The position numbers were made by a program, and so were the translations under genes. Below the pieces are notes generated by a model. The model was not told the DNA's origin and searched no databases. It saw only the letters and a list, made by a program, of their open reading frames with translations. Shown here piece by piece: positions 32,574 through 53,240 of a DNA stretch of 64,000 nucleotides. Source of the stretch: Aquilaria yunnanensis (taxonomy: Eukaryota; Streptophyta; Magnoliopsida; Malvales; Thymelaeaceae); assembly GCA_039654915.1 (NCBI GenBank), contig CM077595.1, forward strand, positions 92,545,501-92,609,500, given 5' to 3'. How positions within the stretch are numbered: position 1 is the first letter of the stretch; each line of letters opens with the position of its first letter.

Positions 32574-35114
32574 TGTTGACACCCGATTTCGTCCGGGTGT
32601 TTTAAAATTTTGAAAAAAATTTTATTAAAAAAAATTAATTTAAAAAAAATATATTACTATTATTATTAAAAAAAAATTTAATTAGTTTAAAATATATTTT
32701 TGTTTTGTGAAAATTTGATTTAAAATGATATATGTGTGAATATGTGTATGTTTGAAATAAAATAAAATTTCATGAAAAAAATGACAAAAAATTAAAAGTT
32801 TGAGGTAAAAATGACAAAATTGAGAAGTTTCGGAAAGAATTGACAAATTCTAAAAGTTCCAGGAGCATTTGGTAGTTTGTCACATAAAATTTTGAGCCTG
32901 CCGACGTTTTTGGCTCAAATTGACAGAAAACGACAAAATTGTCAAAATCAGAAGCTTCAGGAACTTATCCTGAGGCTGAGAGACGTAAAGGACTAAAATT
33001 GTCATTTTACCAATTTAAAAGATAAGTTTGAAATTTTTTATTAATTTATCCATCAACAGTTCAGCCAAACTTCCTCTATAAATAGCCCCCCAAATTTTGT
33101 GCTGAACACAGAGAAAAATAGAAAGAAAAGCTTAGAGCTCCGTTTTTAAAATAGAAAAAATTACAGCCTTAGTCCCTAGCTCTCCTTCCTTTCCTCAGAA
33201 AATCTCAAAACTTTTCATTTTGACGATTAAGCCATCTTCTTCCCCCCCCCCGCGCCCTCTGTTTCCATTTCTCAGAATTCAGAATTTAAAATCAAGGGTA
33301 CAACTCTCATTTAATCCTTCATCTTTTCAATTTCTTTCACTTTGGTCACTAACTTTGTATTTTATTCTTGCAGAATTAATTACTAACCCTTTTAATTTTT
33401 ACTTGTTTATTTATTATTTGTTTATTACTAACCCCTTTTTTTATTGTTGTTATTAACTTACTAACAACTAACTTTTAATACTATTATTGTTACTAACCTT
33501 TTAATTTTTGCATTATTACTAACTTTTATAATTGTTGTTAACAATTAATTAACTTTTATTATTGTTGTTAATTAATTAATTTAATTAACTTGGCTAACTT
33601 TTATTATTGTTGTTAATTAATTAATTTAATTAACTTGGCTAGCTTTTTATTATTTTTGTTAATTAATTAATTTAATTAATTTGGCTAACTTTTTATTTAT
33701 TGTTGTTAATTAATTTAATTAATTTGGCTAACTTTTTATTTATTGTTGTTAATTAATTTAATTAATTTGGCTAACTTTTTATTATTGTTGTTAATTAATT
33801 AATTTAATTAACTTGGCTAACTTTTTACTGTTGTTAATTAATTAATTTAATTAACTTGGCTAACTTTTTATTATTGTGGTTAATTAATTAATTTAATTAA
33901 CTTGACTAACTTTTTATTATTGTTGTTTAACAATTAATTTAATTAACTTTGCTAACATTTATTATTATTTTTAAAGTGGATGGCCAAAAAGCCCCACTTT
34001 ATTATTATTAATTTTTTTTTCTTTATATAATTTTTTTATTTAATTCACCTTTACCCTTTACTAATTAATAAATAAATGAAAATTAAAAGAAGATTATTTT
34101 GTAATTAATTATTAAGGCTAATAAAAATTTATTTTTAAAAAAGCCAATTATTTTTATTTTTATATACATGTTTTTAATTCTTTAAAGATAACAAAAAGTT
34201 AAAATTAATTTTAATAGTTATTTTTATCCAGTAAAAATAATAAAAAAATAAAAATAAAACCTGTTTAAAAAAATACATGAAAATAAGACTTTATATTTTA
34301 CTGATTTATTTAAAATATAACTTTTAAATCCACTAAAATAATAAATATTTTTCATTAAACAAGAAAACAAAAAGAAAATTAAAACAAGATAAGAAAAAGA
34401 TAAGAAAGATAAGAAAAAGATAATAAAGATAAGAAAGATAAGATAAGATAAGAAAGATAAGAAGGAAAAGAAAGAAAAGAAAGAAAAGAAATAAAAATTT
34501 TTAGATTATTAATGAATCTAAAAATTCTATAACAAAAAGAATTACGAATTAGTAATTAAACTAATAATTAATTCCATAAAAATAAGAATTAAATAATTAA
34601 CTATAAATTAAATCAACTTACATATCCGGATGATCCGTCAGGATCTGCGGTTTTAAAAAAATATCACCCTTTTAATTAAATAAATTAAATAAAAAAAAAG
34701 ATAAAAATCCATATTTACAATATGGATTAAATTATTTAAAAGTTCACCAAATTCCGTGTCCAAATGACTCGGCAGAGTCCATGGTTCGGAATCAAAAATC
34801 TTCCGTGTCCAAATGACTCGGCAGAGTCCATGGTTCGGAAGTATAAAATTTCATACAAATTAATTAATTTAAAAATCCACATTTCGACTAATCCAGTTAA
34901 AATTTCTAATTTTGAAAATTAACTGAGAATTATTTAAAAGCAAAGCAAAACAAAATTAAAATCAACTAAGGTGCCAATTTTTGGGCGTTTTAACAAAGTT
35001 GTTTTAACGTAACCGTACTCCCGATCCCCGAACTCTCGCAGACCAATTTTAAGGTGACCAATCGACCTAAGAAAACTGATTGGTGGCGACTCCCGAAAAC
35101 CCGACGTTGCCACA
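32574..35114 (+). repeat. 5' LTR of the cargo element
   Basis: 2541 bp, TGTTGACACCC...GTTGCCACA. TATA box TATAAATA at 33077-33084. A minisatellite of 'TTAATTAATTTAATTAACTT' plus 'GGCTAACTTTTTATTATTG' units of about 45-50 bp runs from about 33540 to 33960. Paired motifs are CGGATGATCCGTCAGGATC (about 34627) and TGACTCGGCAGAGTCCATGG twice (34765, 34815). The last 2.05 kb is nearly identical to the 3' LTR; the first 0.48 kb is clearly diverged. Confidence 0.95.
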
Positions 35115-35117
35115 GCT

Positions 35118-35136
35118 TGGCGACTCCGCTGGGGAC
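35118..35136 (+). other. Primer binding site
   Basis: TGGCGACTCCGCTGGGGAC starts 3 nt after the LTR end, in the standard position, with the TGG that pairs with a tRNA CCA end. Tat/Ogre elements are reported to use a tRNA-Arg-type primer, and this sequence fits that pattern. The same TGGCGACTCC core also occurs inside the LTR tail at about 35082. Confidence 0.85.
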
Positions 35137-36276: not shown

Positions 36277-38004
36277 ATGGCAGAACAAGCCGAAGGACGT
36301 CTCATGGAGATGGAGTCCAAGATTGAAAGTATGTCAGAACAGATGAGACAATTGATGGAATTAATCAAAGGGAAAGCAACTCAAGTCCCCATCAAAGAAG
36401 TACAAGATCCCACTTATCCCCCGGGATTCACCCCGCAACGAGTCTCAGTCCAAGAAAACCTGTTTCAAGAATCAGGACCGTCTGCTAGTGTTCACCTGAA
36501 ACAAGACACTGTACATGAAGAGAAGAATATATTACCAAAAGAAGAAGCAGAATCTCAAAAGCTCGAAACAATAGAGAAGAGACTGCGAGCCATTGAAGGA
36601 GGTAATATATTCGGATCTCTCTCAGTGGATGACCTCTGCTTAGTGCCAGACGTCATAATCCCTTCGGACTTTAAAGTACCGGATTTCGTAAAATACGATG
36701 GAACGAGTGATCCCATCACTCACATCACACTGTTCCTAAGGAGACTACAACCACTCACAAAAGATGAAAATGTGTGGATTGCACTTTTTCAGGAAAGTCT
36801 CACAAAATCAGCATTGCAGTGGTATCTAAGTCAAGGACCAAGAAACATCAAAACTTGGAATGACCTTGCTCAGGCCTTCATCGGCAACTATAAACATGTT
36901 ATGGACTTGGCTCCGGATCGCCAAACTCTCCAAAACATGGAGAAGAAAAAGCCAGAAACTTTCAAGGAATATGCCCAACGGTGGAGGGACTTAGCTGCAC
37001 AAGTTCAGCCACCCATGACAGAAAAAGAAATGGTTACTTTGTTTGTCCAGACACTGAAATACCCATATTATGACAAACTCATCGGCAATTCGGCAACTAA
37101 TTTCTCCGATGTTGTCATGTCTGGAGAAAGGATCGAGCATGGGATTAGGACTGGGAAGATTGCTGAGTCCTTTAGTGATCCTATGAAAAGAGGAGGACCA
37201 TCCAGAACAAAAGATGAAGAAGTACAACAAATAGGACGCGAAAGAGGGATTCCCCTCGTAGGTACTGTGGTTACCGGTCCTCGCCTATCCTATTCTGCCA
37301 AAAGGCCCAATTATTATCCTACCAATAGGCCCAATGACTATCCTCCCAATATGCCTAATGATTATCCTCCCAATAGGCCCAACAATTATCCTTTCAACAG
37401 GCCTAATCAGTTAGGACCACCTGTTCTGACTCCTCCAGTACCCACACGAAGACCAAAAGAAGTTTTTGCACCAATTCCCATGACTTACACTGAGTTGTAT
37501 CCAAAACTCATAGAAAGTCAACTTATCCGTCCAATTCCTACAAATCCATTTGGACCCCCATATCCAACGTGGTATGACCCCAACATAACTTGCCCATATC
37601 ATGATGGCGTTCCAGGCCATGGCTTGGAAAATTGCACAGCATTGAAACGTATAGTCCAACAATTAATTGAATCAAAGTGGTTGGACTTTTCCGATGAACC
37701 GAACGTCACTCACAATCCATTGCCGCCTCATCAAGGAAAACCAGTCAATATGATAGAAGAACACCGGCTGATGAAAAAGTCAGTCAATGATATCATAACC
37801 CCTCTTAAGCATGTATATTCATGCCTTGTGAAAGAAGCGATTATCATGGGAAAGCCTTCTTTTGGACATGAAGAAGTTGAAGATGAGGAATGGTGCAACT
37901 TTCATGACAGTAAGAGTCATTCTATCCAAGAATGCTCAGAATTCCGTAAGAATCTGCAAAGACTCATAGACTCATCCCAACTTATCGTTTTTATGATGAT
38001 GTGA
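36277..38004 (+). CDS. gag: Gag protein (Tat/Ogre type)
   Basis: 575 codons, intact. Structural protein that packages element RNA into cytoplasmic particles. Residues 1-100 include a coiled coil (MESKIESMSEQMRQLMELI). The conserved Retrotrans_gag core lies at about 125-290 (DFVKYDGTSDPITHI, LTKSALQWYL, TWNDLAQAFIGNYKH, FKEYAQRWRDLAAQV). A degenerate Asn/Pro/Tyr repeat follows (RPNDYPPN-like, about 345-375). Two short Cys/His clusters near the C-terminus (CPYHDGVPGHGLENC at about 450; CNFHDSKSHSIQEC at about 545) replace a classical zinc knuckle and are typical of Tat/Ogre Gag. ATG 36277 is the first in frame. After the TGA at 38002 the -1 frame stays open to 38144 and continues plausible sequence, so the original Gag or Gag-Pro probably extended further. 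Confidence 0.93.
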   Translation: MAEQAEGRLMEMESKIESMSEQMRQLMELIKGKATQVPIKEVQDPTYPPGFTPQRVSVQENLFQESGPSASVHLKQDTVHEEKNILPKEEAESQKLETIEKRLRAIEGGNIFGSLSVDDLCLVPDVIIPSDFKVPDFVKYDGTSDPITHITLFLRRLQPLTKDENVWIALFQESLTKSALQWYLSQGPRNIKTWNDLAQAFIGNYKHVMDLAPDRQTLQNMEKKKPETFKEYAQRWRDLAAQVQPPMTEKEMVTLFVQTLKYPYYDKLIGNSATNFSDVVMSGERIEHGIRTGKIAESFSDPMKRGGPSRTKDEEVQQIGRERGIPLVGTVVTGPRLSYSAKRPNYYPTNRPNDYPPNMPNDYPPNRPNNYPFNRPNQLGPPVLTPPVPTRRPKEVFAPIPMTYTELYPKLIESQLIRPIPTNPFGPPYPTWYDPNITCPYHDGVPGHGLENCTALKRIVQQLIESKWLDFSDEPNVTHNPLPPHQGKPVNMIEEHRLMKKSVNDIITPLKHVYSCLVKEAIIMGKPSFGHEEVEDEEWCNFHDSKSHSIQECSEFRKNLQRLIDSSQLIVFMMM

Positions 38005-41000
38005 ATGTGATCATTAAAGAACAAGAAGTCAATACTATACCGATCTCAAAACCTACTCTTAAGCCGTCAAGTCCCGAGGCCATTCCTCTACAAATCAAAC
38101 AAAACCGAGGTCAAGCTGCTAGGCCCGATGTGATTGGTAATTGAAAGTGAAGATTTTGAGCTGGAATTACATTGATTTTGGAAGGGCTCCAAGTCAGATC
38201 TGACCTAACAGTCCGCATACATTTTTGAATAACAGGGAATCCTTTGAATAAACTTGTATCTTTGAAAGCTTGCAAAAGTAATCTAATAGTAAAAATCTCC
38301 TAGATTTAGTCCAGAATCTAGGGTGTAGTCTTTGTTAAATGGACACCTGGTATTCTTTCTGGTACAACAAAAAGATGTAATGCGTGCATTCTACTACTTT
38401 CCATTTATACACTCTTTGCCATTATACTATCCATTATTGTCATCACACTTTACTTTTTGACAACCGGTAATTCTTTTTGTTCTCCAACAAAAAGATGTTA
38501 TGTGTGCATTCTACCACTTTTTAATTCAATTATTACACCTACACATTCTACCACTTTTTACCAAAAATTTCATTTTTACCTCTATCTCTCAATCTTTGCC
38601 ATTGCACTAACTATTATTGCCATCATACTTTGCTTTCTAAATGATACTACTCGTGGGTGAAAATAAAAAGTTAAGGGAGATTTGATAGTGGTGATCTGGA
38701 AAGTACTACTAAATCTAGCAAGAATGATTTCATATGTTGCACCCCAACTCTTAAAAAAAAAATTCACAGTGGTTATCAACATCCTTGCAAGGAGTCCGGG
38801 ATTAACTTCCAAAGAAGTTAGCTCTCATATTAAATGACTTCAGTGGCCTCCCAATTCTCACAAATGCTCAATACAAAAAAAAAATTCTCAGTTTTCCACA
38901 ACACAAATTCCAACAAAAGAAAGAAGTTCCTCCATTCCATCAAAAGCCATTAAAGGAAAAATCCAAAACAAAAAAAAAGAGACTGAGAGCAAACACAAGC
39001 AAGGCCACTTGAGTCATCTCACTTCAAGAGAGTTATCAAGTATGTCATCACCATAGCTCACAAAAAAAAAAAAGGGAAACAAAAAAAAATAAAAAATAAA
39101 AAGGAAAAAGGGCTCAAACTAGATCAAAAGAAAAAAAAAAGAAAAAAGTGAGCTATGGATTCTAGACTGAAAACCTGCAAAGGCGGTTTAGAACACAAAA
39201 GCAACCCTCAAACCAAGCATGCATAAAGATCACAATAGTTGGGGGGCAACAGATGAGGTCTAACTTTCTGGAAAGAGTGGCAAATTGAGGTCATCACTAT
39301 TGAGTTTTTCACCATAATCAAATTTGCTCACGAGTAGTATTAAAAGACCCTTCTTTCACACCACTCAAACTTAACTTTATTCAGACCTAATATTTACCTC
39401 TTAATATTATTCTCATTCAGCTAAAAGACTGCCACAAAAAAAAAAAACATTCAAACTTAACTTTCCTCACACCTAACATTTACCTCTCGATATCATCCTC
39501 ATTCAGTTAAAAGGCTATTATTGTGAATCATGTTTCTACCTTATTGCCTTGCACAGTTTATGTCTTCGAGTTGGAAAAGGGAAGAATGGCAGGATATTTT
39601 AATTAAAAACAAAGACCGTAAATTACTTTGTCAAGCTTTGCAAATTGATGAAAGTTTTTCTTTAAGGCCAAACCATTATTCATTAATGTATGTAGACTTA
39701 AAAGTGAGGAGATAGCTTGAGTCTTTCTTTAATAAGATGTGGTTCTTGTAAGAGAAATTTACGATCAAGTGCCATCACAAAGGTCTAGAAATGCTCGACC
39801 TTCTGTTAAATCAAAGGCGATATGATACATTTTCTCCACATAAATACCATATTCAGGAGGGCAAAGTAGTCTCTACAAAGCGTAAGAAGAGTACTGCCAA
39901 GAAAGAAGCTCAATAGACAAGGGGGCAAGTCTTATGGATCAGAACCTGAGTCTAAGGAAGAGCAATCATTCGGACTGTAACATGGGGGTAAACAAGTGTC
40001 GGCACGGCCAGAAGAAAATGGGCAAAGCAGACATTGAAAGTAAAGCCTTTGATGGTATCAAATCCATGACAATGGATGAGTACCCGAAAGAGATATAAAT
40101 TATGAGGCGGGCCAACTTTAAAGAAATTGAGGCCAAAATTCAAGAACAAGTCAAAGAAAGGGGATTTTGAAAAAAGTTGGGCTTTTGAGGCAGTGAACAA
40201 AAGCTGGAAAGCATAAAGAGATTCAATGATAGTCCAAGAAGGCAATTATAAAGAGGATCCAGTAAAGCAAAGATATGAAGAACTAGATCAATCCAAAAAA
40301 AATAAAAAATAAAAAAATAAATATAAAAAAAAATAAATAAATAAAAAAAGAACCATCAATTACACATGCTTTGCATTCATGCATTTCACATCATGCATGC
40401 ATGATTTTTACACGATAGGAATCAAATGGGAAACACATCCACCGCACCGTTACAGCAGTATAAGCTGAGATCTCAATAATATCAGCTCTTACCAATCTAT
40501 CACTGGATACACAGCTAATATGCGGGACCAACCCGCATCAGGAATTCAAGGATAAGGTAGACAATATGTCAAAAGCCTGGCAATTGATTCAATAATCGAG
40601 ACTACACCTGGAAGGACAGGATTGACATCAGCTAGTAGTATCCAAAATAAGAGATAGCTATAGCCAAGGATAAGGCAGATATCAAAAAGGATAAAGTAGA
40701 CAATATTGTCAAAAGCTTGGCAATTGATTCAATAATCGAGGCTACACCTGGAAGGACAGGATTGATGCCAGCTTAGCAGCATCCAAGATAAGAGATAGCT
40801 GTGGTCAAAGATAAGGCAGACATCAAGAAATATTGAAGTTGAAACTTTGTTAAAAGCGGACAATGGATTCAATAATCGAGGACTGGATCAACGGATAAAA
40901 AAAAAAATCTATCAAAATGAAGTAGGATCTACTTTTCCGGTTAAACGGCGGATACGGTACTTCGTGACTCTCAAGTCGGTTCTCTCAGTTGCCCATAATA

Positions 41001-41043
41001 ACTGATTCCTTCACCCCTTCTTTCTTTTACTTCCTCCTAGAAA
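38005..41043 (+). other. Non-coding segment in the pol position
   Basis: No RT, protease or integrase motif in any frame. Content: a repeated 'AACAAAAAGATGT' and 'TGCATTCTACCACTTT' block (38370-38530); A-rich runs (39060-39140, 40290-40350); an 89-bp duplication (about 39362-39450 and 39451-39530, 'CTTAACTTT..TCAGACCTAA'-like). An unsupported 61-codon ORF (39530-39715) contains KREEWQDILIKNKDRKLL. It may be leftover host or pol-flank sequence. Confidence 0.6.
40550..40890 (+). repeat. 139-bp tandem repeat upstream of the Cys-rich genes
   Basis: Two full units (40550-40688, 40689-40827) and a partial third to about 40890. Markers: GGATAAGGTAGACAATAT, TTGATTCAATAATCGAG, CACCTGGAAGGACAGGATTG. 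Confidence 0.9.
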
Positions 41044-41481
41044 ATGGATCCTACTTTTTCCGCCTTGCGAAAGTATTTCCCTTCTCTCCCAATGAACATC
41101 CTCAAAAAGATCTACCAAGTTCGCTGTGAACGATTAAGAGTTCTGATGCACAAAGGAATCCCTGAAGATGTGCGGTGGTTAATCGAAGCCAAGGTTCGTC
41201 TAGCAGGTGAAATCCCAGAGGCATTTGTGTCTCACATGCCTGGTATAGGCAAAAGCTCTTATGCCAAAAAGCGAAGAGCGAAAAGGTTACAAGTCTGCCA
41301 TAAATGTGGACGGTGGACTTGTAATACTAAATGTCGTTCTTTAGGGATGATCTCTGATAATCGAGAAGATAAAATACGATTCATTAAGAATGGCCTGAGT
41401 AAAGACTCGTTGGATGATATCCAATTGACTCTTGAGACGCATTCTTGTGGATCTGTGCAACGTGAACTACTTGGTTTGTAG
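41044..41481 (+). pseudogene. Cys-rich NABP-like gene, copy 1 (C-terminally truncated)
   Basis: 145 codons, first of three tandem paralogues. Order: an N-terminal Leu/Ile/Arg-rich region (1-75), a basic patch (YAKKRRAKRL, about 77-88), a zinc-binding motif C-x2-C-x4-C-x3-C (about 90-103), then a conserved FIKNGL block (about 117). This layout resembles the small Cys-rich nucleic-acid-binding proteins of carla- and viti-like plant viruses, some known as RNA-silencing suppressors or nuclear regulators. The homology is inferred by eye. The ORF ends at TAG 41479-41481 where copy 2 has a Trp codon, so it lacks the 37-residue C-terminal part of copy 2; the zinc motif is intact and the shorter protein could still be made. 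The duplicated leader (GCGGATA...ACTGATTC, about 40945-41010) is present, but no TATA box was found upstream. Confidence 0.6.
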
Positions 41482-41754
41482 AGCATTTTTCATGAAGAAC
41501 GAAACCGTTACAGTCCCGGGAATCTGACTGTAAATGACCCTGTTTGCCAGCTTGTAAGAAAACTGGATGGGAAGCAAATCCTCGACTCATAGAAGCCGTT
41601 AATGCCGTTACTGGACGAAAAACCAGTGGAAGATGTGAGCCACAGTCACAATTACTGTACATACAGTTTGTTATATTTGGAAAAGTTTGCATTTTCTTTC
41701 GACAGATGTACACGCTCCCCTAAGTGTAATCAACACGTTATCCCTTTTCATCAC

Positions 41755-41761
41755 TATAAAT
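41755..41761 (+). promoter_or_regulatory. TATA box of copy 2
   Basis: TATAAAT within the cassette 'TTATCCCTTTTCATCAC' + TATAAAT, 121 bp before the copy 2 ATG. The same cassette stands before copy 3 and, changed, before LOG. Confidence 0.65.
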
Positions 41762-41881
41762 GCGTGTTCTTCCTTCTGATTAAGCAGCGGATAAGATACC
41801 CCGTGACTTCTAAATTCAGTTATTCCAGTCTCCTACAATAACTGATTCATTTCCCTCTTCTCTCAAATTCTTCTCTCATCA

Positions 41882-42430
41882 ATGGATTCTACTCTTTCTG
41901 CACTGCGAAAATACTTTCCTTCCCTTCCAATAAAAGTCCTTAAAAAGATCTACCTGGCTAGATGTGAAAGAATCAGAGTTTTTACACGCAAAGGCATTCC
42001 CGATAATGTGCAGTGGATAATTGAAGCTAAGGTCCGTTTGGCGGGTGAAGTTCCAGATGCATTTATGCCCCGCATGCCCGGTTTAGGTAAAAGCCGTTAT
42101 GCCAAAAGGCGAAGAGCAAAGAGACTAGGCGTGTGTTATAAATGTGGGCGATGGAATTGTATTACTAAATGTCGCTCTTTAGGATACATCTTCATAAATC
42201 GTGAAGATAAAAGAAAATTCATTAAGAATGGCCTGCGTAAGGAATCTCTGGAAGATATCCGAGAGACTCTTGAAACGCATTCTTGTGGAAAAGTGCAAGG
42301 TGAAATTATCAGTTTATGGAGGACTTACCATAAAGAACGAAACCGTTACAGTCTTGGGAATGTGATTTTAAACAACCCTGTTTGTCAGTTTGTAAGGAAA
42401 CTGGATGGGAAGCAAATCCCCGACTTATAG
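41882..42430 (+). CDS. Cys-rich NABP-like protein, copy 2 (longest, intact)
   Basis: 182 codons, start ATG 41882 exactly 838 bp after that of copy 1. Regions: basic, helix-prone N-terminus (1-75); nuclear-localisation-like RRRAKRL (about 82-88); single zinc motif C-x2-C-x4-C-x3-C (CYKCGRWNCITKC, 90-102); FIKNGLRKESLEDI block; then a 45-residue C-terminal part with HSCGK and NNPVCQFVRKLDG. Similarity to the nucleic-acid-binding Cys-rich proteins of carla- and viti-like RNA viruses is my reading of the basic-patch, Cys-motif and FI-x-G order. In those viruses the protein binds nucleic acid, can enter the nucleus and may suppress RNA silencing. A role in shielding the element from silencing is inference only. 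Own TATA box upstream, and sense orientation with gag. A plant or element protein with a convergent zinc motif is the alternative. Confidence 0.65.
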   Translation: MDSTLSALRKYFPSLPIKVLKKIYLARCERIRVFTRKGIPDNVQWIIEAKVRLAGEVPDAFMPRMPGLGKSRYAKRRRAKRLGVCYKCGRWNCITKCRSLGYIFINREDKRKFIKNGLRKESLEDIRETLETHSCGKVQGEIISLWRTYHKERNRYSLGNVILNNPVCQFVRKLDGKQIPDL

Positions 42431-42580
42431 AAGGCATTGAAGCCATTACTGGACATAAATCAGTGGAAGATGAGAGCCACGGTCATGATTCCTGTACATA
42501 TAAGCTGTCATTTGTCTTTTCTTTTGACAATAATGTACTTGCTTCTGTAAGTGTAATTAACGCATTATCCCTTTCATCAC

Positions 42581-42588
42581 TATAAATA
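42581..42588 (+). promoter_or_regulatory. TATA box of copy 3
   Basis: TATAAATA in the cassette 'GCATTATCCCTTTCATCAC' + TATAAATA, 66 bp before ATG 42647. Confidence 0.65.
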
Positions 42589-42646
42589 TGTGTTAGTTAT
42601 TTTCGTTTCCTACAATCACTAATTTCTTTCTTTGCCTCCTTCATCA

Positions 42647-43027
42647 ATGGAGTCTTCTCTTTCCGCCCTACGAAAGTATTTTCCTTCCTTCCCAATAAAT
42701 GTTCTTAAAAAGATTTATCAAGCTAGATGTGAACGATTCAGAGTATTTATGCACAAAGGCATTCCTGATAATGTGCGATGGCTAATCGAAGCTAAAGTTC
42801 GTTTGGCTGGTGAAGTTCCAGATGCGTTCTTTCCCCGTATGCCCGGCTTTGGTAAAAGCGCTTATGCCAAAAAAAGAAGAGCAAAGAGGCTAGGCGTTTG
42901 TCATAATTGTGGATGGTGGATTTGCGGCAATAAATGTCGTTCTCCAGGAGTGATCACCAGAAATCGTAATGATAGAATAAGATTCATTAAGAATGGCTTG
43001 CGTAAGGAATCTCTAGAAGATATTTGA
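42647..43027 (+). pseudogene. Cys-rich NABP-like gene, copy 3 (early stop)
   Basis: 126 codons from ATG 42647 (the TTG-initiated extension to 42632 has no merit). Same domain order as copy 2: the zinc motif is kept (CHNCGWWICGNKC) and so are the basic patch and the FIKNGLRKESLEDI block. It ends at TGA 43025-43027 where copy 2 has an Arg codon. Downstream, homology to copy 2 continues to about 43200 but with an A-run (about 43095) that also disturbs the frame, so the C-terminal part is lost. A shorter, zinc-motif-containing protein could still be produced. Confidence 0.6.
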
Positions 43028-43224
43028 GAGGTTCTTGAAGCGCATTCTTGCGGAATAGTGCAATTTGAGGTTGTTGGATTATGGATAATTTTCCAAAAAA
43101 AATGAGATCGTTACAGTCTTGGGAATCTGACCCTAAATGACCCTGTTTGCCAGTTTGTGAGAAAGCTAGATGAGATGCAAATCACCGATTCATAGAAAGC
43201 ATTGAAGCCATTACTGGACGCAAA

Positions 43225-43800
43225 GCCAGTGGAAGACGAGGATCAAAGTCACGATTACTGTACGTGCTAGCTGTCGTTTTTGAAATTTTCCTCCCCTTTT
43301 GGTAATAATGTATCCACTCCTGACGTGAACCAAAGTCACGATTACTGTACGTGCTAGCTGTCGCTTTTGAAATTTTCCTCCCCTTTTGGTAATAATGTAT
43401 CCACTTCTGACGTGAACTAAAGTCACGATCACTGTACGTGCTAGCTGTCGCTTTTGAAATTTTCCTCCCCTTTCGGCGATAATGTATCCACTCCTGACAT
43501 GAGCCATAGTTACGATACTGTACATGCTAGCTGTCGCTTTTGCAATTTTCCTTCTCCTTTGGCGATAATGTACCCACTCCTGACATGAGATACAGTTATG
43601 ATTACTGTATATAGCGGCCACTTTTTAAAATTTCCCTTCTCTTCCAACAATCACGTACCTACTCCTGACGTAAGCTACAGTAGTGACTACTGTACATGCT
43701 AGCAGCTATTTTGAAAATTTTCCTCCTCTTTTAACGATAGTGTACCCATACCTGACCAGAGTCATACTCATGACTACTGTGAATAGCTGGCAATAATGTA
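43225..43800 (+). repeat. ~86-bp tandem array between copy 3 and LOG
   Basis: Seven degenerate units (phases at about 43240, 43327, 43415, 43501, 43588, 43670, 43757), each with 'AGTCACGATTACTGTACGTG', 'CTAGCTGTCGCTTTTG' and 'GATAATGTATCCACTCCTGA'. Single copies of the same sequence follow copy 1 (about 41640) and copy 2 (about 42478), so the array is an amplified piece of the intergenic promoter-proximal DNA. It ends 40-45 bp before the LOG TATA box. Confidence 0.85.
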
Positions 43801-43842
43801 TCCACTCTTGAAAATAAAATTATTGCCTTATCTCTTCATCTC

Positions 43843-43850
43843 TATAAATA
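43843..43850 (+). promoter_or_regulatory. TATA box of LOG
   Basis: TATAAATA preceded by 'TTGCCTTATCTCTTCATC', a changed version of the cassette before copies 2 and 3. It lies 40 bp before ATG 43883, giving a leader of only about 10 nt if initiation is at the usual distance. It therefore excludes the upstream in-frame ATG 43796 and probably the out-of-frame ATG 43873. Confidence 0.6.
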
Positions 43851-43882
43851 TATCCTCTTTTCTCACAAGGGTATGGATAGGA

Positions 43883-44512
43883 ATGGAGAAAACCCCAACT
43901 CGTAAATCCCGAAGTATTTGTGTATTTTCTGGGGTTTTTCCTGGAAAAGATGAAGAGTATTTAAAGGCAGCCAACCATTTGGGTAGAGTATTAGCTGAGC
44001 GAAAAATACATTTAGTTTATGGAGAAGGTAGTGTCGGATTAATGGGAGGTGTAGCATCAGCAGCATCTTTAGGAGGAAATCAAGTTTTGGGCATCATCCC
44101 TGGACCTTTGAAATTTGTTTCTGGGGGCACGATTGGAGAAGAATTAGTGGTTAAAAATTTGCAAGAGCGTGTGTTACAAATGCTTTTAAATGCTGATGCT
44201 TTTATCGCTCTACCAGGTGGTTTTGGCACATTGGGAGAAGTCTTTCAAATTGCTTCCATGGCCCAACTTAATTTGCATAAGAAACCCATTGGGCTTTTAA
44301 ATGTTAACAATTTCTTTACAGGTCTGATAGCTTTTATGGATTATGCTATGCAGAAGAATTTCATATCAAGAGTGGCACGGCGAATCATAATATCCGCAAC
44401 AACTGCTGAAGAATTGCTAGATAAAATACAAGCTTTTGTTCCTGAACCAGATCCAGCAATAATTCAGATAGACTGGACACGACAGTCTTTCCCGACCAGT
44501 TCACTCCCATAA
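43883..44512 (+). CDS. LOG: LOG-family cytokinin riboside 5'-monophosphate phosphoribohydrolase
   Basis: 209 codons, intronless, full family length. LOG enzymes remove ribose 5'-phosphate from cytokinin nucleotides, giving active cytokinin bases in one cytosolic step. Visible motifs: N-terminal Rossmann strand ICVFSG (about 11-16), LVYGEGSVGLMGGVA (family form GGGSxGLMG), VLGIIP, GGTIGE, the signature PGGFGTLGE (PGGxGTxxE, catalytic Glu kept) at about 114-122, then KPIGLLNVNNFF and FISRVARRIIISATTAEELL, all collinear with plant LOGs. Departures: GEG for GGG, a shortened loop before GGTIGE, and the family MHxRKA motif replaced by LQERVLQM (Arg kept, Lys lost). Start 43883 chosen because residue 1 onward aligns with LOGs and the TATA box is at 43843; the frame is open to ATG 43796. 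The retained ORF suggests selection or recent capture. Activity is uncertain because of the motif changes. Confidence 0.9.
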   Translation: MEKTPTRKSRSICVFSGVFPGKDEEYLKAANHLGRVLAERKIHLVYGEGSVGLMGGVASAASLGGNQVLGIIPGPLKFVSGGTIGEELVVKNLQERVLQMLLNADAFIALPGGFGTLGEVFQIASMAQLNLHKKPIGLLNVNNFFTGLIAFMDYAMQKNFISRVARRIIISATTAEELLDKIQAFVPEPDPAIIQIDWTRQSFPTSSLP

Positions 44513-45027
44513 TGGTCCTCTACTCACCCTGTTGAAGAATTGTGGAAGAAAGAAGCGATCTGATCTGTTTTTCTTGTCCTTTAGTTTTATTATCAGCATT
44601 TTCTTTCGCGTTTCAGTTTTTCTTTTCAGGAAATTTCTTTTTTTTTATAATATAGTTTCGTCCAAGCTGATATTAAAACCATAGGACAATGCCTTTAGGT
44701 TGGAATGGCTGAGTAAAGAGTAATTTTTGTTACTCTTGAGACGCATCCTATTAGGTCTACTAGGCATAACATTTTGGGGTAGTTAAGCTTTAACCTTATT
44801 CGGATGACATATCTCACAAGGGAATCTATATTTACTGAAGAAAATATTAGATGAACCTTGAATATTGATTCCAAACATCCGTTCCCTTTACATAATTTGT
44901 CAGTGTTATTGTCATCATCAAGATTCACTCGTTTTATCGAAGCCTAATTCTTTGTGCTCGCCTATTATGAAAATTCACACTTTCGAAGAAAATTATTCCA
45001 ATTTCAATTGCTTTCATATAAATTTCG
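44513..45027 (+). other. 3' flank of LOG
   Basis: No gene. T-rich 'TTTTTCTTGTCCTTTAG' stretches and a possible poly(A) region around 44640-44660. ORFs here are unsupported. Confidence 0.45.
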
Positions 45028-45975
45028 CTCGAGGTCCTAAGGAAAGCTCCTTAGCCTCAAAATCAATTTTCATCATCAGGGTTTTAAGGATGGAACCTTT
45101 GCCTTGAAAAGAATCAATTTTCATCATCGGGGTTTTAAGGATGGAACCTTTGCCTCGAAAACAATCAATCTTCATCATCGGGGTTTTAAGGATGGAACCT
45201 TTGCCTCGAAAACAACTAATTTTCATCATCGAGGTTTTAAGATGGAACCTTTGCCTCGAGATCAATCAATCAATCCGGCGTTTTAAGGATGGAACCTTTG
45301 CCTCGAGATCAATTATCAATCCGAGGTTTTAAGGATGGAACCTTTGCCTCGAAAACAATCAATTATTAATCCGAGGTTTTAAGGATGGAACCTTTGCCTC
45401 GAACTCAATCAATCGTCGAGGTTTTAAGGATGGAACCTTTGCCTCGACATCAATTAATCAATCCGAGGTTTTAAGGATGGAACCTTTGCCTCGACATCAA
45501 TCAATCAATCCGGGGTTTTAAGGATGGAACCTTTGCCTCGACATCAATCAATCAATCCGGGGTTTTAAGGATGGAACCTTTGCCTCGAGATCAATCAATC
45601 AATCCGAGGTTTTAAGGATGGAACCTTTGCCTCGAGATCAATTAATCAATCCGGGGTTTTAAGGATAGAACCTTTGCCTCGAGATCAATCAATCAATCCG
45701 GGGTTTTAAGGATGGAACCTTTGCCTCGACATCAATCAATCAATTCGAGGTTTTAAGGATGGAACCTTTGCCTCGACATCAATCAATCAATCCGGGGTTT
45801 TAAGGATTGAACCTTTGCCTCGACATCAATCAATCAATCCGGGGTTTTAAGGATGGAACCTTTGCCTCGAGATCAATCAATCAATCCGAGGTTTTAAGGA
45901 TGGAACCTTTGCCTCGAAAACAATCAATTTTCATTCATCGGGGTTGTAAGGATGGAACCTTTGCCTCGAAAACAA
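45028..45975 (+). repeat. ~47-bp hairpin-forming tandem array (about 19 units)
   Basis: Consensus CGAGGTTTTAAGGATGGAAC followed by CTTTGCCTCG and a spacer of ATCAATCAATCAATC type. Each unit can fold with CGAGG pairing CCTCG and AAGG pairing CCTT. Units that read CGGGG instead of CGAGG still pair through G-U. The array lies in the untranslated region before the PPT. Confidence 0.92.
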
Positions 45976-45984
45976 ATAATCAAT

Positions 45985-46308
45985 CAATTAGTCCATCTTA
46001 CAACGATAGGAGCTTTCCTATCGTTAGAGGTTCTAAGGACATTTCCTTAACCTCAAATAAACAATCAATCAATCAGTCCATCTTACAACGATAGGAGCTT
46101 TCCTATCGTTAGAGGTTCTAAGGACCTTTCCTTAACCTCAAACAAACAATCAATCCATCAGTCCATCTTACAATGATAGGAGCTTTCCTATCGTTAGAGG
46201 TTCTAAGGACTTTTCCTTAACCTCAAACAAATAATCAATCAATCAGTCCATCTTACAACGATAGGAGCTTTCCTATCGTTAGAGGTTTTAAGGACCTTTC
46301 CTTAAACC
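45985..46308 (+). repeat. ~85-bp tandem array (4 units) with two hairpins per unit
   Basis: Units at about 45990, 46075, 46160 and 46244 contain ACGATAGGAGCTTTCCTATC(GT), a perfect 9-bp stem with a GCTT loop, and GAGGTT-AAGG...CCTT-AACCTC, a second stem related to the 47-bp units. A fragment of this array recurs inverted inside the solo LTR at 62682-63330. Confidence 0.92.
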
Positions 46309-46402
46309 TTACTGTTTGGGCGGCGAGAAGATTCTCAATGCCTACCTAAGCCGGACGAAATTTGGTAACGACTTTGCATACATCATGTCCCATGAAGCAT
46401 GC

Positions 46403-46415
46403 AAAGGGGGGCAGC
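46403..46415 (+). other. Polypurine tract
   Basis: AAAGGGGGGCAGC immediately before the TG of the 3' LTR, the standard position for second-strand priming. Confidence 0.9.
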
Positions 46416-48952
46416 TGTTGACACCCAATTTCGTCCGGGTGTTTTAAAATTTTAAAAAAATTTTATTAAAAAAAAATTATTAATTTTAAAAAAAAATATT
46501 ACTATTAAAAAAAATTTAATTAGTTTAAAATATATTCTTGTTTTGTGAAAATTTGATTTAAAATGATATATGTGTGAATATGTGTATGTTTGAAATAAAA
46601 TAAAATTTCATGAAAAAAAATGGCAAAATTTAAAAGTTTGAGGTAAAAATGACAACATTAAGAAGTTTCGGGAAAAATTGACAAATTCTGAAAGTTCTAG
46701 GAGCATTTGGTAGTTTGTCACATAAAATTTTGGGCCTGCCGACGTTCTGGCGCAAATTGACAGAAAACGATAAAATTGTCAAAATCAGAAGCTTCAGGAA
46801 CTTATCCAGAGGCTGAGAGACGTAAAGGACTAAAATTGTCATTTTACCAATTTTAAAGATAAGTTTGAAATTTTTTATTAATTTATCCATCAACAGTTCA
46901 GCCAAACTTCCTCTATAAATAGCCCCCCAAATTTTGTGCTTAACACAGAGAAAAATAGAAAGAAAAGCTTAGAGCTCCGTTTTTAAAATAGAAAAAATTA
47001 CAGCCTTAGTCCCTAGCTCTCCTTCCTTTCCTCAGAAAATCTCAAAACTTTTCATTTTGACGATTAAGCCATCTTCTTCCCCCCCCCCCGCGCCCTCTGT
47101 TTCCATTTCTCAGAATTCAGAATTTAAAATCAAGGGTACAACTCTCATTTAATCCTTCATCTTTTCAATTTCTTTCACTTTGGTCACTAACTTTGTATTT
47201 TATTCTTGCAGAATTAATTACTAACCCTTTTAATTTTTACTTGTTTATTTATTATTTGTTTATTACTAACCCCTTTTTTTATTGTTGTTATTAACTTACT
47301 AACAACTAACTTTTAATACTATTATTGTTACTAACCTTTTAATTTTTGCATTATTACTAACTTTTATAATTGTTGTTAACAATTAATTAACTTTTATTAT
47401 TGTTGTTAATTAATTAATTTAATTAACTTGGCTAACTTTTATTATTGTTGTTAATTAATTAATTTAATTAACTTGGCTAGCTTTTTATTATTTTTGTTAA
47501 TTAATTAATTTAATTAATTTGGCTAACTTTTTATTTATTGTTGTTAATTAATTTAATTAATTTGGCTAACTTTTTATTTATTGTTGTTAATTAATTTAAT
47601 TAATTTGGCTAACTTTTTATTATTGTTGTTAATTAATTAATTTAATTAACTTGGCTAACTTTTTACTGTTGTTAATTAATTAATTTAATTAACTTGGCTA
47701 ACTTTTTATTATTGTGGTTAATTAATTAATTTAATTAACTTGACTAACTTTTTATTATTGTTGTTTAACAATTAATTTAATTAACTTTGCTAACATTTAT
47801 TATTATTTTTAAAGTGGATGGCCAAAAAGCCCCACTTTATTATTATTAATTTTTTTTTCTTTATATAATTTTTTTATTTAATTCACCTTTACCCTTTACT
47901 AATTAATAAATAAATGAAAATTAAAAGAAGATTATTTTGTAATTAATTATTAAGGCTAATAAAAATTTATTTTTAAAAAAGCCAATTATTTTTATTTTTA
48001 TATACATGTTTTTAATTCTTTAAAGATAACAAAAAGTTAAAATTAATTTTAATAGTTATTTTTATCCAGTAAAAATAATAAAAAAATAAAAATAAAACCT
48101 GTTTAAAAAAATACATGAAAATAAGACTTTATATTTTACTGATTTATTTAAAATATAACTTTTAAATCCACTAAAATAATAAATATTTTTCATTAAACAA
48201 GAAAACAAAAAGAAAATTAAAACAAGATAAGAAAAAGATAAGAAAGATAAGAAAAAGATAATAAAGATAAGAAAGATAAGATAAGATAAGAAAGATAAGA
48301 AGGAAAAGAAAGAAAAGAAAGAAAAGAAATAAAAATTTTTAGATTATTAATGAATCTAAAAATTCTATAACAAAAAGAATTACGAATTAGTAATTAAACT
48401 AATAATTAATTCCATAAAAATAAGAATTAAATAATTAACTATAAATTAAATCAACTTACATATCCGGATGATCCGTCAGGATCTGCGGTTTTAAAAAAAT
48501 ATCACCCTTTTAATTAAATAAATTAAATAAAAAAAAAGATAAAAATCCATATTTACAATATGGATTAAATTATTTAAAAGTTCACCAAATTCCGTGTCCA
48601 AATGACTCGGCAGAGTCCATGGTTCGGAATCAAAAATCTTCCGTGTCCAAATGACTCGGCAGAGTCCATGGTTCGGAAGTATAAAATTTCATACAAATTA
48701 ATTAATTTAAAAATCCACATTTCGACTAATCCAGTTAAAATTTCTAATTTTGAAAATTAACTGAGAATTATTTAAAAGCAAAGCAAAACAAAATTAAAAT
48801 CAACTAAGGTGCCAATTTTTGGGCGTTTTAACAAAGTTGTTTTAACGTAACCGTACTCCCGATCCCCGAACTCTCGCAGACCAATTTTAAGGTGACCAAT
48901 CGACCTAAGAAAACTGATTGGTGGCGACTCCCGAAAACCCGACGTTGCCACA
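46416..48952 (+). repeat. 3' LTR of the cargo element
   Basis: 2537 bp, TGTTGACACCCAATTTC...GTTGCCACA, TATA box TATAAATA at 46914-46921. From 46898 to the end it matches the 5' LTR except for one base (GTGCTTAAC versus GTGCTGAAC) and one C in a poly-C run that I noticed. The first about 480 bp differ at roughly 18 or more positions. Confidence 0.95.
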
Positions 48953-49193: not shown

Positions 49194-50806
49194 ATGACCT
49201 GTAACTCTTGCTCCTGCTTACTACTGTTTGACCTGGAAATTGAGAAGACCCTAAGGGAGATTCGTTTGAAAAGCAAGATTATTGTTGAGGAAGAAGACTT
49301 GAGTGCTTCCAATTCTGACAACATAGAGGAAAATCAAGGATACAACATGAAGAACCTTGGAGGAGAGATGAATGCCAATCCCATAGACTTCAATGGTGAT
49401 GAAGAGGTAATGGACAATGCTCATAAAAGAGCTCATGGTAATGATGTAAGAAAAAGGGGAAACTAGTGCTTGACTACTTTAGACCTTAAAGGGTAGAGGA
49501 TCATGAGAACATGATTAGGCCGGTGCCACTTCAAGGGCGAACATTCATGATTCTTAGCCATGTTCTTCGATTAATCGAGGCACTTTATTTGGAGGAGCTA
49601 TTGATGAAGATCTAAATAACCATATTAAGAGGTTTGTTCGCTTATGCGATACTTTTGATTTGGAGGGTGTGAATGAGGATGTGAAAAAGATGAAGCTCTT
49701 CCCTTTTTCTCTTGTGGATGAAGCAATTGAGTGGTTTGAGAATTTGGAGCATACCTCGATTTATACATGGTAAGACTTATATGATGCTTTCATTCGGAGG
49801 TTCTTCCCCTGAGTTATTTGCCTTTAGACAACATGAATATGAGTCACTTATGGAGGCATGGGTGTGCTTCAGAAAGATGGTGAAGAGGGTCCCAACACAA
49901 GATATTAATCAAGCTCATCAACTCCACCTTTTCTACAATGGGTTGAGTTTAAATACTTATTTACAAGTTGATACCACTGTCGGTAGTTTCCTTCTTTTGA
50001 AAGATATTGAGGAGTGATTTGAATTGCTCAATAACATGACCAAGAGCCTTGAGCTTAGTGGAAAATAGGCTCCAAGAAAATGGAGTGGCTTGTATGAAGT
50101 TGACAATGATACCTCTCTCTAAGCACAACTTTCGATACTCACTAGCATGGTGTCCAAATTGGCCAAGAATCAAGATAGAATGAAGGTGCAACAAGCTTTG
50201 GTTAGTGAGGATGTGGAAGAATTAGATGATGTGAATTTTGTGAGGTATCAGAATCTTTATCCACCACAGCAATGAGGGGGAAACTTCTTCCCAAGGAATC
50301 ATCAACATGAATGGTTCAACTATTCAAATCCAAAGAGTGCCATGCAACCACAAGGTGAGACCTCCCATGAATCGGACACTTTATTGAAGGATTTTATAAA
50401 AGGTATAATGGGAGAATTCATGCATGACGTAAGAGGAATGACTAATGGTCAAAACAAAAAGATTAATGCATTGGAAAATGAGATGAAAACAATGCAAGCC
50501 AACACTCAAGTGTCAATTAAGAATTTGGAGACACAAGTTGGCCAAATAGTCACTTCCATGAGACAACTTCAAAAAGGAAATTTCATACCCAGCGATATGG
50601 ACATAAATCCAAGGGAGTCTTGTCAAGTCATAACTCTAAGAAGTGGAAGGAATGTGGTGACTCAACCTAAGGAGCCACCGACTCTAGAAGATTTTCCTCC
50701 TCAAGGACCTACCCTACTGAAAGAAGTTGATGATTATCAAGTTAAACCACCAAGTGGTGAAGAAACTCATTCGAAGGATAAGGGAAGAAAGATGCCCACT
50801 CAATAG
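49194..50806 (+). pseudogene. Athila gag, broken
   Basis: The gag core is recognisable in pieces: RPVPLQGRTFMI (about 49518-49555), DVKKMKLFPFSLVDEAIEWF (about 49679-49738), then a stop within the usual TW-DDL motif (about 49770). The C-terminal part is open at 50342-50806 with a coiled coil (KKINALENEMKTMQ), NLETQVGQIVTSM and CQVITLRSGRNV, phrases typical of the Athila Gag-Pro junction. Several in-frame stops and at least two frame changes make it non-functional. Confidence 0.75.
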
Positions 50807-50878
50807 GAAGTATTAAAACATACTCCTATTCTCCCCTATCCTTAAAGGTTTAAGCCCAAAAAGAAGGAAACTCAATTC

Positions 50879-51837
50879 ATGAAGTTTCTTGAAATATTTA
50901 AAAAGTTGGAGATCAATATTCCCTTTTTGGAAGTACTAAACCAAATGTCATCTTCTGCTAAGTTTCTCAAGGAGTTGATTACTAAAAAGAGGAAGTTACT
51001 TAACAATGAGCTTATTTTGATGAAGGAGGAGGCAGGTGTCATCATTCAACAAAAGATGCCTAAAAAACTCAAATACCCGGGGAGTTTCACTATTCCTTTG
51101 GATATATGGTCTTTTCATTGTGACAAGGCGCTATATGATCATGAAGCTAGCATTAACCTAATGCCAATGTCTATTTGTAGGAGCCTTGGCCTTAGGGAGG
51201 TGAAGTCGTCATCGATTGGCTCCAATTGGTAGATAGATCCCTTACATTCCCAAAAAGTGTATTAGAGGATGTGTTGGTTAAAGTTGGTAAATTCATATTT
51301 TCGATGAATTTCGTGGTGTTGGATATGGAAGAAGATCGAAACATGTCAACTATTCTTGGGAGACCCTTTCTCACCACCGGGAAGGCCATCATCGATATGG
51401 AAAAAAATAATCTTACCTTGAGAACTAATGATGAAGAGATTACTTTCAATCTTGCTCAAGCTATGGAATCTATTAATGATGAGATGCCCAAATGTTTTAT
51501 GGTGGGTGTGGTTGACTCTTACATTGGTGAGGTAAAGGGGTCTTTGTTTATAGATGATTCACTTGGGAATGCTTATATTTGTGCGAATCCATTTGAGGAG
51601 ATTCATAAAGTAATAAGTGCATGGGAGTCCATTGATGTTTATAGGAAAACACAAGCAAAAAGGGGAAGTTTTGAGCAACTTTTGTCTTGTGAGACTAAAG
51701 AAGAGCCCAAGTTGGAATTAAAACCTTTGCCCAAGGATCTCAAGTATATTTACCTTGGTCTTAGAGAATTCTTCCTAATGATTATTTCTTTTTTTTTTTA
51801 TCAACTTTGGAGGAGGATAAATCGATTAAAGTTTTGA
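50879..51837 (+). pseudogene. Athila protease region, broken
   Basis: Two overlapping frames (50879-51232 and 51226-51837). The active-site region reads YDHEASINLMPMSI where Athila proteases have a D-x-G-A-S motif, so the Gly needed for the catalytic loop is lost. The second half contains NMSTILGRPFLTTGKAIIDM, the conserved ILGRPFL flap and C-terminal region, in the other frame, and then the spacer toward RT. Confidence 0.75.
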
Positions 51838-51889
51838 GGGAGTACAAAAGTGCAATTGCTTAATCGATCGCCGACATCAAAGGTATAAG

Positions 51890-53240
51890 CCCTGACATTT
51901 GCATGCACAAGATCTTAATGAAGGATGAATACAAGCCCTCAATCCAAGCTTAAAGGAGATTAAATCCTAAATTGAATGAGGTGGTAAAAGAATAGATCTT
52001 GAAGCTTTTCAAGACCGGCATTATTTACCCCATCTTGGACTTGTAATGGGTTAGTTCGATACAAGTGGTGCCAAAGAAGGGTATAACTACCATTATGAAA
52101 AATGAGAACAATGAATGGATTTCTACAAGATTAGTGACCAAGTGGAGGGTTTATTTTGATTACTAGAAGCTCAATAAAGCTACTCAGAAGGATTATTTCC
52201 CTTTGCTTTTCGTTGATCAAATCTTGGATCGGTTAGCCAGCCATTCTTATTATTGTTTTTTGGATGGCTACTCCGGGTACAATCAAGTTGCAATAGCCCC
52301 CGGAAGATCAAGAGAATATGACCTTCACTAGTCCTTGGGGTACATATGCCTTTTGGAGGATGCCTTTTAGTCTTTGTAATGCACCGGTAATCTTCCAATG
52401 ACATATGATGGCCATCTTTTCGGATATGGTGGAGAAATGCATGGAGGTATTTACGGATGACTTTTCGGTCTTTGGTGATTCTTTTGATGCATGTTTGGAT
52501 AATTTAGCTTTTGTGTTGAAAAGATGTCAAAAAACCAATTTGGCTTTGAATTGGGAGAAATTCCATTTCATGGTTACTTCCGGTATTGTTCTTGGTCATA
52601 AAATTTCTTGCGAATGCATGGAGGTGGATAGAGCAAAAATTGTTGCTATTGAAGAATTGCCACCACCCACTAATGTTAAGGGGGTTGGAAGTTTTTTGGC
52701 CCATACTGGGTTCTATCGGTGATTTATCAAGGATTTTCCAAAATTACTAAGTCATTTTGTAATTTACTTGATAAGCATGTTCCTTTTGTCTTTAATGAGC
52801 ATTTTATTGAGGCTTTTGATATTTTGAAGCAAAAGTTGGTCAAGGCTCCCGTAGTAGTAGCACCAAATTGGGATTAGCCTTTTGAAATCATGTGTGATGT
52901 TAGTGACGTCGCCATTGGGGCAGTGTTTGGACAACAAAGAGAGAAAATTTTTCGAGTGATATACTATGCTAGCGAAACATTAGATGGGGCTCAACAAAAT
53001 TACACTACTACGGAGAAGAAGTTGTTAACAGTTGTGTTCTCGATGGATAAGTTTTGAGCTTATATTGTGGGATCCAAGATGGTAGTGCACACAGATCATG
53101 CGGCCATCAAGTACCTCTTCACCAAAATGGATGTTAAACCAAGGTTAATCTGGTGGATTCTCTTCCTTCAAGAGTTCGACCTTGAAATCAAGGATAAAAA
53201 GGGCAGTAAAAATTTAGTGGTTGATCACTTCTCTCGAATT
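51890..53240 (+). pseudogene. Athila reverse transcriptase and RNase H, broken
   Basis: RT motifs across frames: a YWMKLNKAT-like block disrupted by a stop (about 52160), FLDGYSGYNQVAIAP (about 52257-52301), a disrupted FGLCNAP-like block (about 52362-52390), and the catalytic box FTDDFSVFG (52450-52476), where the Asp pair is kept. VLGHKIS and the thumb region follow to 52722. RNase H pieces include 'VMCDVSDVAIGAVFGQ' (about 52890) and [13 protein letters not shown]. Many stops (for example 52163, 52330, 52722). Confidence 0.8.

Follow-up and report, generated by a model that had tools for sequence, protein, structure and literature searches.

An apparently non-autonomous LTR retrotransposon family of Aquilaria yunnanensis carries a LOG gene beside three NABP-like genes

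Introduction

Some non-autonomous LTR elements, known as TR-GAG and LARD, encode only gag or are coding poor; they retain LTRs, a PBS, and a PPT, lack pol, and reach high copy numbers. Additional ORFs in LTR elements are discussed in PMC7264820 and PMC11963269. The former describes transduced host genes in plant LTR elements as well as aORF-3S elements, which are present in many copies and have extra sense ORFs between pol and the 3′ LTR. LOG does not appear in the parts of these two papers considered here, and the same scope applies to our statements about the other papers cited. The presence of a LOG-type domain in LTR elements is already published: PMC9289625 reports a YgdH (LONELY GUY-type) domain in LTR-element consensuses of Citrus sinensis and C. 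clementina and, under a looser filter, of Populus trichocarpa, and notes that this agrees with Steinbauerova et al. 2011. The same paper reports orchid Ty3/gypsy elements that have gained an m6A RNA demethylase domain described as functional.

Two protein families are relevant to the locus described here. The carlavirus NABP is described as a nuclear zinc-finger protein and silencing suppressor (PMC8839810). The same work connects the NABP of one virus, which has a nuclear signal, with a transcription factor, malformed leaves, and cell proliferation. LOG proteins, for which PMC11593424 names the motif PGGxGTxxE, are described as falling into two groups, one releasing mainly the free base and the other mainly the riboside, that share their critical residues.

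We analyzed a 64-kb stretch of the Aquilaria yunnanensis genome (here, the window) that contains a LOG gene within an LTR element. The element shares with those of Citrus and Populus the LOG domain inside an LTR retrotransposon; the published elements are Gypsy-type and the YgdH finding is a domain hit (PMC9289625), whereas viral-type partner genes, a C-terminal tail, TATA modules, copy statistics, and a selection test are added here. As in aORF-3S elements, the extra ORFs are in sense orientation and occur in many copies, but no pol was seen, and there are four extra genes, including a recognizable enzyme and a viral-type protein. The family differs from TR-GAG and LARD in adding non-retroelement genes under selection. 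The orchid elements have likewise gained an enzyme, but a different one that acts on RNA. A limited literature search found no report of NABP genes in LTR elements or of LOG together with NABP.

Results and discussion

Structure of the element

The initial annotation had described a full-length, intronless LOG ORF with PGGxGTxxE, lying in sense orientation between gag and the PPT of a 16.4-kb LTR element, and both the gene and its setting proved to be as described. The element that spans the LOG ORF occupies positions 32574-48952 (16.4 kb) of the 64-kb window and has the paired LTRs, PBS, PPT, and gag of an LTR retrotransposon, the PBS and PPT being assigned by position and reading (Table 1). 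The LOG ORF matches PF03641 (1.3e-30; 106.7 bits against a cut-off of 27) and TIGR00730 (142.4 bits against 96.35) without an internal stop. It has the motif in the form PGGFGTLGE and retains the Arg of the LQER stretch (R96), both columns being conserved in alignments. The closest solved relative is Arabidopsis At2g37210 (2a33; E, 3.3e-50). The NF058542 equivalog cut-off was missed (93.3 versus 300 bits) in a comparison made without a plant LOG control. Plant LOG genes normally contain introns.

Table 1. Features of the LTR element, in window coordinates
Feature	Coordinates	Strand	Evidence or remarks
5′ LTR, 2541 bp	32574..35114	+	TG...CA termini; 98.6% identity with 3′ LTR (blastn)
PBS-like stretch TGGCGACTCCGCTGGGGAC	35118..35136	+	Position and reading; directly 3′ of 5′ LTR
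gag ORF, 575 aa	36277..38004	+	PF03732 5.2e-12
NABP-like gene 1	41044..41481	+	PF05515 1.4e-7, PF01623 4.2e-6; stop at codon 146
TATA module TCATCACTATAAAT before NABP 2	41748..41761	+	Sequence match
NABP-like gene 2, open, 182 aa	41882..42430	+	PF05515 1.1e-6, PF01623 3.1e-5
TATA module TCATCACTATAAAT before NABP 3	42574..42587	+	Sequence match
NABP-like gene 3	42647..43195	+	Stops at codons 127 and 153 in window copy
87-bp tandem unit, 5.9 copies	43245..43756	+	CTGACGTGA-like (TGACG) motifs; directly upstream of LOG
TATA module TCATCTCTATAAAT before LOG	43836..43849	+	Sequence match
LOG ORF, 209 aa	43883..44512	+	PF03641 and TIGR00730; no internal stop
47-bp tandem array, 19 copies	45079..45985	+	Between LOG and 3′ LTR
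Polypurine tract AAAGGGGGGCAGC	46403..46415	+	Position and reading; abuts 3′ LTR
3′ LTR, 2537 bp	46416..48952	+	TG...CA; pairs with 5′ LTR

The window element has no target-site duplication, its flanks reading CTCAT and GATAG. In the LTR alignment, which begins with 32574-33270 against 46416-47110, all 28 substitutions fall within the first ~600 columns and the final ~1845 columns are identical. The LTR pair is a mosaic, which likely arose by recombination between family copies. Because the pair is mosaic and without a target-site duplication, LTR dating was not used. The gag and PBS may resemble those of Tat/Ogre elements, which use a tRNA-Arg PBS of this kind.

No pol (RT, RNase H, integrase) was found in the window: between gag and NABP 1 no ORF of at least 100 aa is listed, and of the 25 open pieces in that interval, all on the plus strand, the 7 scanned against Pfam gave no pol match. 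Judged by frames rather than HMMs, the family copies L031 to L033 (plus strand) and L079 to L081 (both strands) also have no long pol-like frames. A pol-bearing partner was sought through gag, with 76 of 13633 candidates scored. One stretch, L081, was fetched for its gag frame, which is ~50 codons longer than that of the window, and it had no pol frame either.

Three NABP-like genes

Between gag and LOG lie three tandem, sense-oriented copies of one gene, which the initial annotation had missed. All three exceed the Pfam cut-offs for Viral_NABP (PF05515) and Carla_C4 (PF01623) (gene 1, 32.2 bits against 23 and 27.1 bits against 20.9, respectively), and only gene 2 is whole in the window copy. 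Among six other copies read, gene 1 is open to codon 182 in five, one of which (L079) lacks the ATG, and gene 3 in four.

In an alignment of 36 sequences including that of the window, a basic KKRRAKRL stretch is followed by C-X2-C-X4-C-X3-C. Carlavirus NABPs (PF01623/PF05515) share this order of basic patch and four-cysteine motif, but their spacing, given for one carlavirus as C-X2-C-X12-C-X4-C (PMC8839810), was not seen after the basic stretch here, and the present protein has 182 aa and is encoded in tandem triplicate in a retrotransposon. Because the cysteine spacing differs, we do not class the proteins as carlavirus NABPs; they appear to be relatives that may work in a similar way, and the likeness to the viral families is remote. 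The AlphaFold model (mean pLDDT, 60.7) was too poor for a fold search. Scans of IMG/VR with LOG and NABP returned no relatives.

Putative promoters and tandem repeats

TATA modules, which like the lack of pol went unnoted in the initial annotation, precede NABP 2, NABP 3, and LOG; none was found before NABP 1. With one mismatch allowed, TCATCNCTATAAAT has three matches in the 64 kb, where 0.20 is expected; all three are exact, and each is upstream of one of these genes. The TATAAA core lies 127 nt (NABP 2), 66 nt (NABP 3), and 40 nt (LOG) from the start codon, and cores at similar distances occur in five other copies. Among copies selected independently of LOG (the blind sample described below), 14 were looked at, and CTATAAATA is present in all 11 in which the LOG start was located. 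Based on these matches, we infer that the modules may give NABP 2, NABP 3, and LOG their own promoters.

The core of the 47-bp unit downstream of LOG, GAGGTTTTAAGGATGGAACCTTTGCCTC, has inverted ends, and the array is followed by four 85-bp units. The LOG frame is also open upstream of its start (43796-43882), making a 29-residue, partly hydrophobic extension possible; open extensions occur in other copies too.

Copies in the host genome

A search of the plant's own genome (842 Mb) with LOG gave 3663 first-look candidates, and none of the 150 matches scored contains a stop. In its genome of origin the family thus carries the gene at many loci, a point that the initial annotation had proposed to check in related genomes. 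A search of this genome with a stretch of Arabidopsis LOG3 gave 150 scored matches with 45-48% identity that are uninterrupted over nearly the whole query, four of them with a stop. We take these matches for element copies; the search ignores introns, and host LOG exons are outside the 150 scored.

Thirty loci, the window included, were fetched in order of similarity to the LOG protein. NABP lies upstream of LOG in 29 of them (the exception is L005), and 20 of the 30, ranked by that very protein, encode the same LOG. The LOGs of the copies are 94-99.7% identical to that of the window.

Six other stretches were read, five selected for LOG (L031, L032, L033, L079, and L080) and one, L081, for its longer gag. 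All six contain three NABP genes, with damage in several: genes 1 and 2 of L031 contain stops, gene 3 of L032 ends at a late stop, gene 3 of L033 is frameshifted, and gene 1 of L079 has no ATG. LOG is open in each of the five stretches that reach it, all of which had been selected for LOG. Of these five, only L032 retains a full gag gene; that of L079 is cut, and at most a scrap is left in L031, L033, and L080, so that four are without a full gag. Long frames in the stretches read are gag, NABP, LOG, and a few that are unassigned. A separate nested insertion of the LOG block into the window element alone was considered and rejected: NABP and LOG have the same order in the copies read.

The steady genetic content of the family is a cargo of three NABP genes and one LOG gene. 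The family is apparently a high-copy, non-autonomous LTR retrotransposon that would depend on the pol of another element.

Selection on LOG

Because LOG itself should not choose the copies, a blind sample was drawn with 518 bp of non-coding DNA downstream of LOG as the query, and 40 of 1724 candidates were scored. Leaving the window aside, 39 rows remained, and 34 of these copies make up the sample; they are young, with at least 98% identity in the query stretch. LOG is open in 22, has one in-frame stop in 8, and has indels in 4.

Changes were counted in 30 ungapped sequences, including that of the window and omitting L076 and the four copies with indels. A change was called shared if present in at least two sequences and private if present in one; the count is not tree based, and recurrent mutation can render changes shared. 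Shared changes were nonsynonymous and synonymous in the ratio N10:S36 (omega, 0.086; p ~1e-14), and private changes, at N51:S18 (omega, 0.88), were indistinguishable from neutral; the two classes differ (Fisher, 4e-8). With L076 added, the counts were 11:39 shared and 74:34 private. Restricting the count to the 22 open LOGs (21 copies and the window) gave N4:S22 (0.056) shared and N35:S30 (0.36) private. The shared class includes one stop, R10*, which two copies carry.

As controls, the shared-class omega was 0.68 and 1.83 in the other sense frames and 1.35, 0.36 (p 0.001), and 2.13 in the antisense frames. The antisense value of 0.36 is a warning of leaking codon coupling; no wrong frame comes near 0.086. 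Two LOG subfamilies ~10% apart in DNA are both open, with dN/dS of 0.20-0.34 in 12 pairs. The second (L052 to L056 and L076) has a divergent central stretch, YFFAGLLSFMNRAVKQKFIPEVA.

Together, these counts look like purifying selection on LOG during copying, followed by decay after insertion. Because decay is expected after insertion, 12 broken copies among 34 and near-neutral private changes fit this pattern. The initial annotation had reserved the case of a one-off insertion for a gene with no other copies, or with copies showing dN/dS near 1 and frequent stops. We found instead a shared omega of 0.086, and a one-off insertion was rejected based on the many copies in the plant's own genome and the selection on shared changes.

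In 31 sequences (30 blind copies and the window), the active-site positions are retained almost throughout (R96, 30/31; P111, 30/31; E119, 31/31). Compared with the protein common to 20 of the 30 fetched loci, the window LOG has four changed residues, one of them G48E in the YGGGS motif. Position 48 is G in 28 of the 31 sequences and R, a stop, or E (the window) in the remainder; E also occurs there in the Orobanche relative P0117. The window copy may or may not be active. With NABP 1 and NABP 3 prematurely stopped and LOG changed at four residues, it is less intact than some others.

Selection on the NABP genes

Within-element comparisons of NABP paralogues in seven elements gave dN/dS of 0.18-0.41 at dS of 0.43-1.0 (19 of 21 pairs; two with early stops were left out). 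The NABP genes have therefore been under purifying selection since their duplication. The signal between copies is weaker. Across four copies, the ratio was 0.135 for gene 1 and 0.61 for gene 2. For gene 3, 27 of 33 sequences from LOG-ranked loci (20 of the 27 open) gave a shared omega of 0.30, whereas one wrong frame gave 0.50; five sequences had been set aside for gaps or divergence, and L005 has no gene 3.

Relatives of LOG and NABP in other plants

A protein search with LOG gave 7998 scored candidates, 7750 of them at E of ≤1e-3. Reevesia pubescens genes, on many chromosomes, account for 38 of the best 120 of these 7750, and other organisms among the matches listed are Diplodiscus, Paulownia, Populus, Xanthoceras, Parasponia, and Orobanche. 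For NABP 2, 141 relatives were found at E of ≤1e-3 among 190 candidates. Those with an organism name among the best 120 are all from plants (Xanthoceras, Acer, Rhamnella, and Orobanche), and none of the 120 is a Reevesia protein.

In Rhamnella, the gene model P0212 combines 55% identity to NABP across most of the query with a LOG domain, the latter being the only domain found in a Pfam scan at E of ≤0.01. Contigs of length 4511, 2128, and 2425, from the same source, are in both match lists, which suggests linkage without proving it; contigs of 905 and 1018 are also common to both and are too short for both genes. Based on copy number, P0212, and the elements of PMC9289625, the listed LOG relatives are presumably element borne.

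The LOG tree comprises 58 rows, with 35 taken from the 120 element-type LOGs listed, the window LOG, 20 of 120 proteins listed in a protein search with a LOG3 query, a LOG8 fragment, and one bacterial sequence. The 35 element-type LOGs and the window LOG fall on one side of a branch and 21 host-type LOGs on the other (support, 99/97), with a branch length of 0.59 to the element-type lineage. The phylogenetic comparison with host LOGs to which the initial annotation had looked thus sets the element-type LOGs apart from hosts of the LOG1/LOG3 type, other host groups being barely sampled, with the LOG8 fragment alone representing those beyond LOG1/3. That annotation had also held the intronless copy to fit capture through an RNA intermediate. 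LOG is indeed a regular gene of a many-copy LTR family, but because element-type LOGs branch apart from host-type LOGs (99/97), its capture was probably not an event of the window element.

Of the 120 element-type LOGs listed, 99 have an LxLxL pattern in their C-terminal 15 residues, in most cases preceded by a K/R-rich stretch; none of the 120 proteins listed for the LOG3 query has it. Such a tail may act as an EAR (TOPLESS-binding) motif. It is absent from the window LOG and the eleven copies printed, which end in SFPTSSLP or close to it.

A possible role for the cargo

We consider the odds about even that this is a non-autonomous LTR family whose cargo of three NABP genes and LOG serves the copying of the element through weakened silencing and released cytokinin. 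Under this model, the element would borrow pol from another element. Where the element is transcribed, NABP proteins would weaken silencing or alter transcription, and LOG would release active cytokinin or a related product. The released cytokinin would hold the element-expressing cell in a dividing or meristem-like state, and copies with a working cargo would leave more heritable copies. The manipulation of cytokinin by the element is what we infer from the gene content. LOG activity is not readable from the motif, because some motif-intact plant LOGs mainly make the riboside (PMC11593424), and selection at the level of the element is harder to explain because a diffusible hormone benefits other copies too.

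More tentatively, the family may belong to a retrotransposon lineage, spread over several plant families, that combines viral-type, anti-silencing zinc-finger proteins with a division-promoting, cytokinin-releasing LOG that mostly has a corepressor-binding tail. In the genome studied, this kit would have outlived pol, and often gag, and would have been selected for element copying.

If this role for the cargo is correct, a genomic parasite employs a plant hormone gene, as do bacteria and gall-formers, and a transposon bears virus-type counter-defense genes. LOG cargo makes the purpose of additional ORFs in plant LTR elements directly testable, with substrates that are known and selection that is measurable, and natural copies with and without gag, or with whole or broken cargo, allow comparison.

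Other explanations

LOG may also have been selected for the element but not mainly for cytokinin, acting instead as a nuclear or regulatory protein or as a nucleotide-pool enzyme that helps reverse transcription. We regard this as unlikely, yet as the strongest competitor. In most relatives, the basic patch and the LxLxL (EAR-like) tail would recruit a corepressor, and the contrast in tail frequency (99/120 element-type LOGs listed versus 0/120 LOG3-query proteins), the long branch to the element-type lineage (0.59), and the different main product of some LOGs (PMC11593424) would all suit such a role. However, the window family is tailless and its LOG is nevertheless under strong selection, and R96, P111, and E119 are retained in 30-31 of 31 sequences. 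The three NABP genes and LOG might alternatively be a once independent unit, for example, the relic of an endogenous virus or something pararetrovirus-like, carried passively in the LTR element. The viral-type NABP genes, the genes' own TATA modules, the TGACG-type repeats before LOG, and the persistence of the cargo where gag is absent are consistent with such an origin, which we nonetheless consider improbable. Judged by its long frames, the family has gag, NABP, and LOG together with a few frames that are unassigned, selection on shared changes requires a benefit during copying, and Rhamnella P0212 joins NABP similarity with a LOG domain (LOG only by Pfam at E of ≤0.01).

Benefit to the host, with the LOG copies forming a dispersed host gene family, is disfavored and seems very improbable. 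It would account for the many open copies and for the same protein at 20 of 30 loci, although that protein had also served to rank the loci. However, private changes are close to neutral, 12 of the 34 blind copies are broken, and host selection would favor particular loci rather than changes common to many insertions. We give the least credence to passive hitchhiking of a captured host gene that is intact only through the youth of its copies. The copies are indeed similar (LOG, 94-99.7% identical to that of the window), and transduced host genes are known in plant LTR elements (PMC7264820), but youth alone gives neither the shared ratio of N10:S36 nor dN/dS of 0.20-0.34 between open subfamilies. 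As a full account, hitchhiking is not consistent with the LOG counts.

Other retroelement sequences in the window

The window also contains LTR fragments that belong to this family or a related one, at 62680-63143 (+), 3227-3841 (-), 16895-17429 (+), and 1073-1328 (-). From a reading of its ORFs, the stretch at 49712-54462 resembles a second, degraded Ty3-type element. Rhamnella P0200, a protein whose C-terminal part is NABP-like, is ~57% identical in its N-terminal part to 54140-54462 within this stretch.
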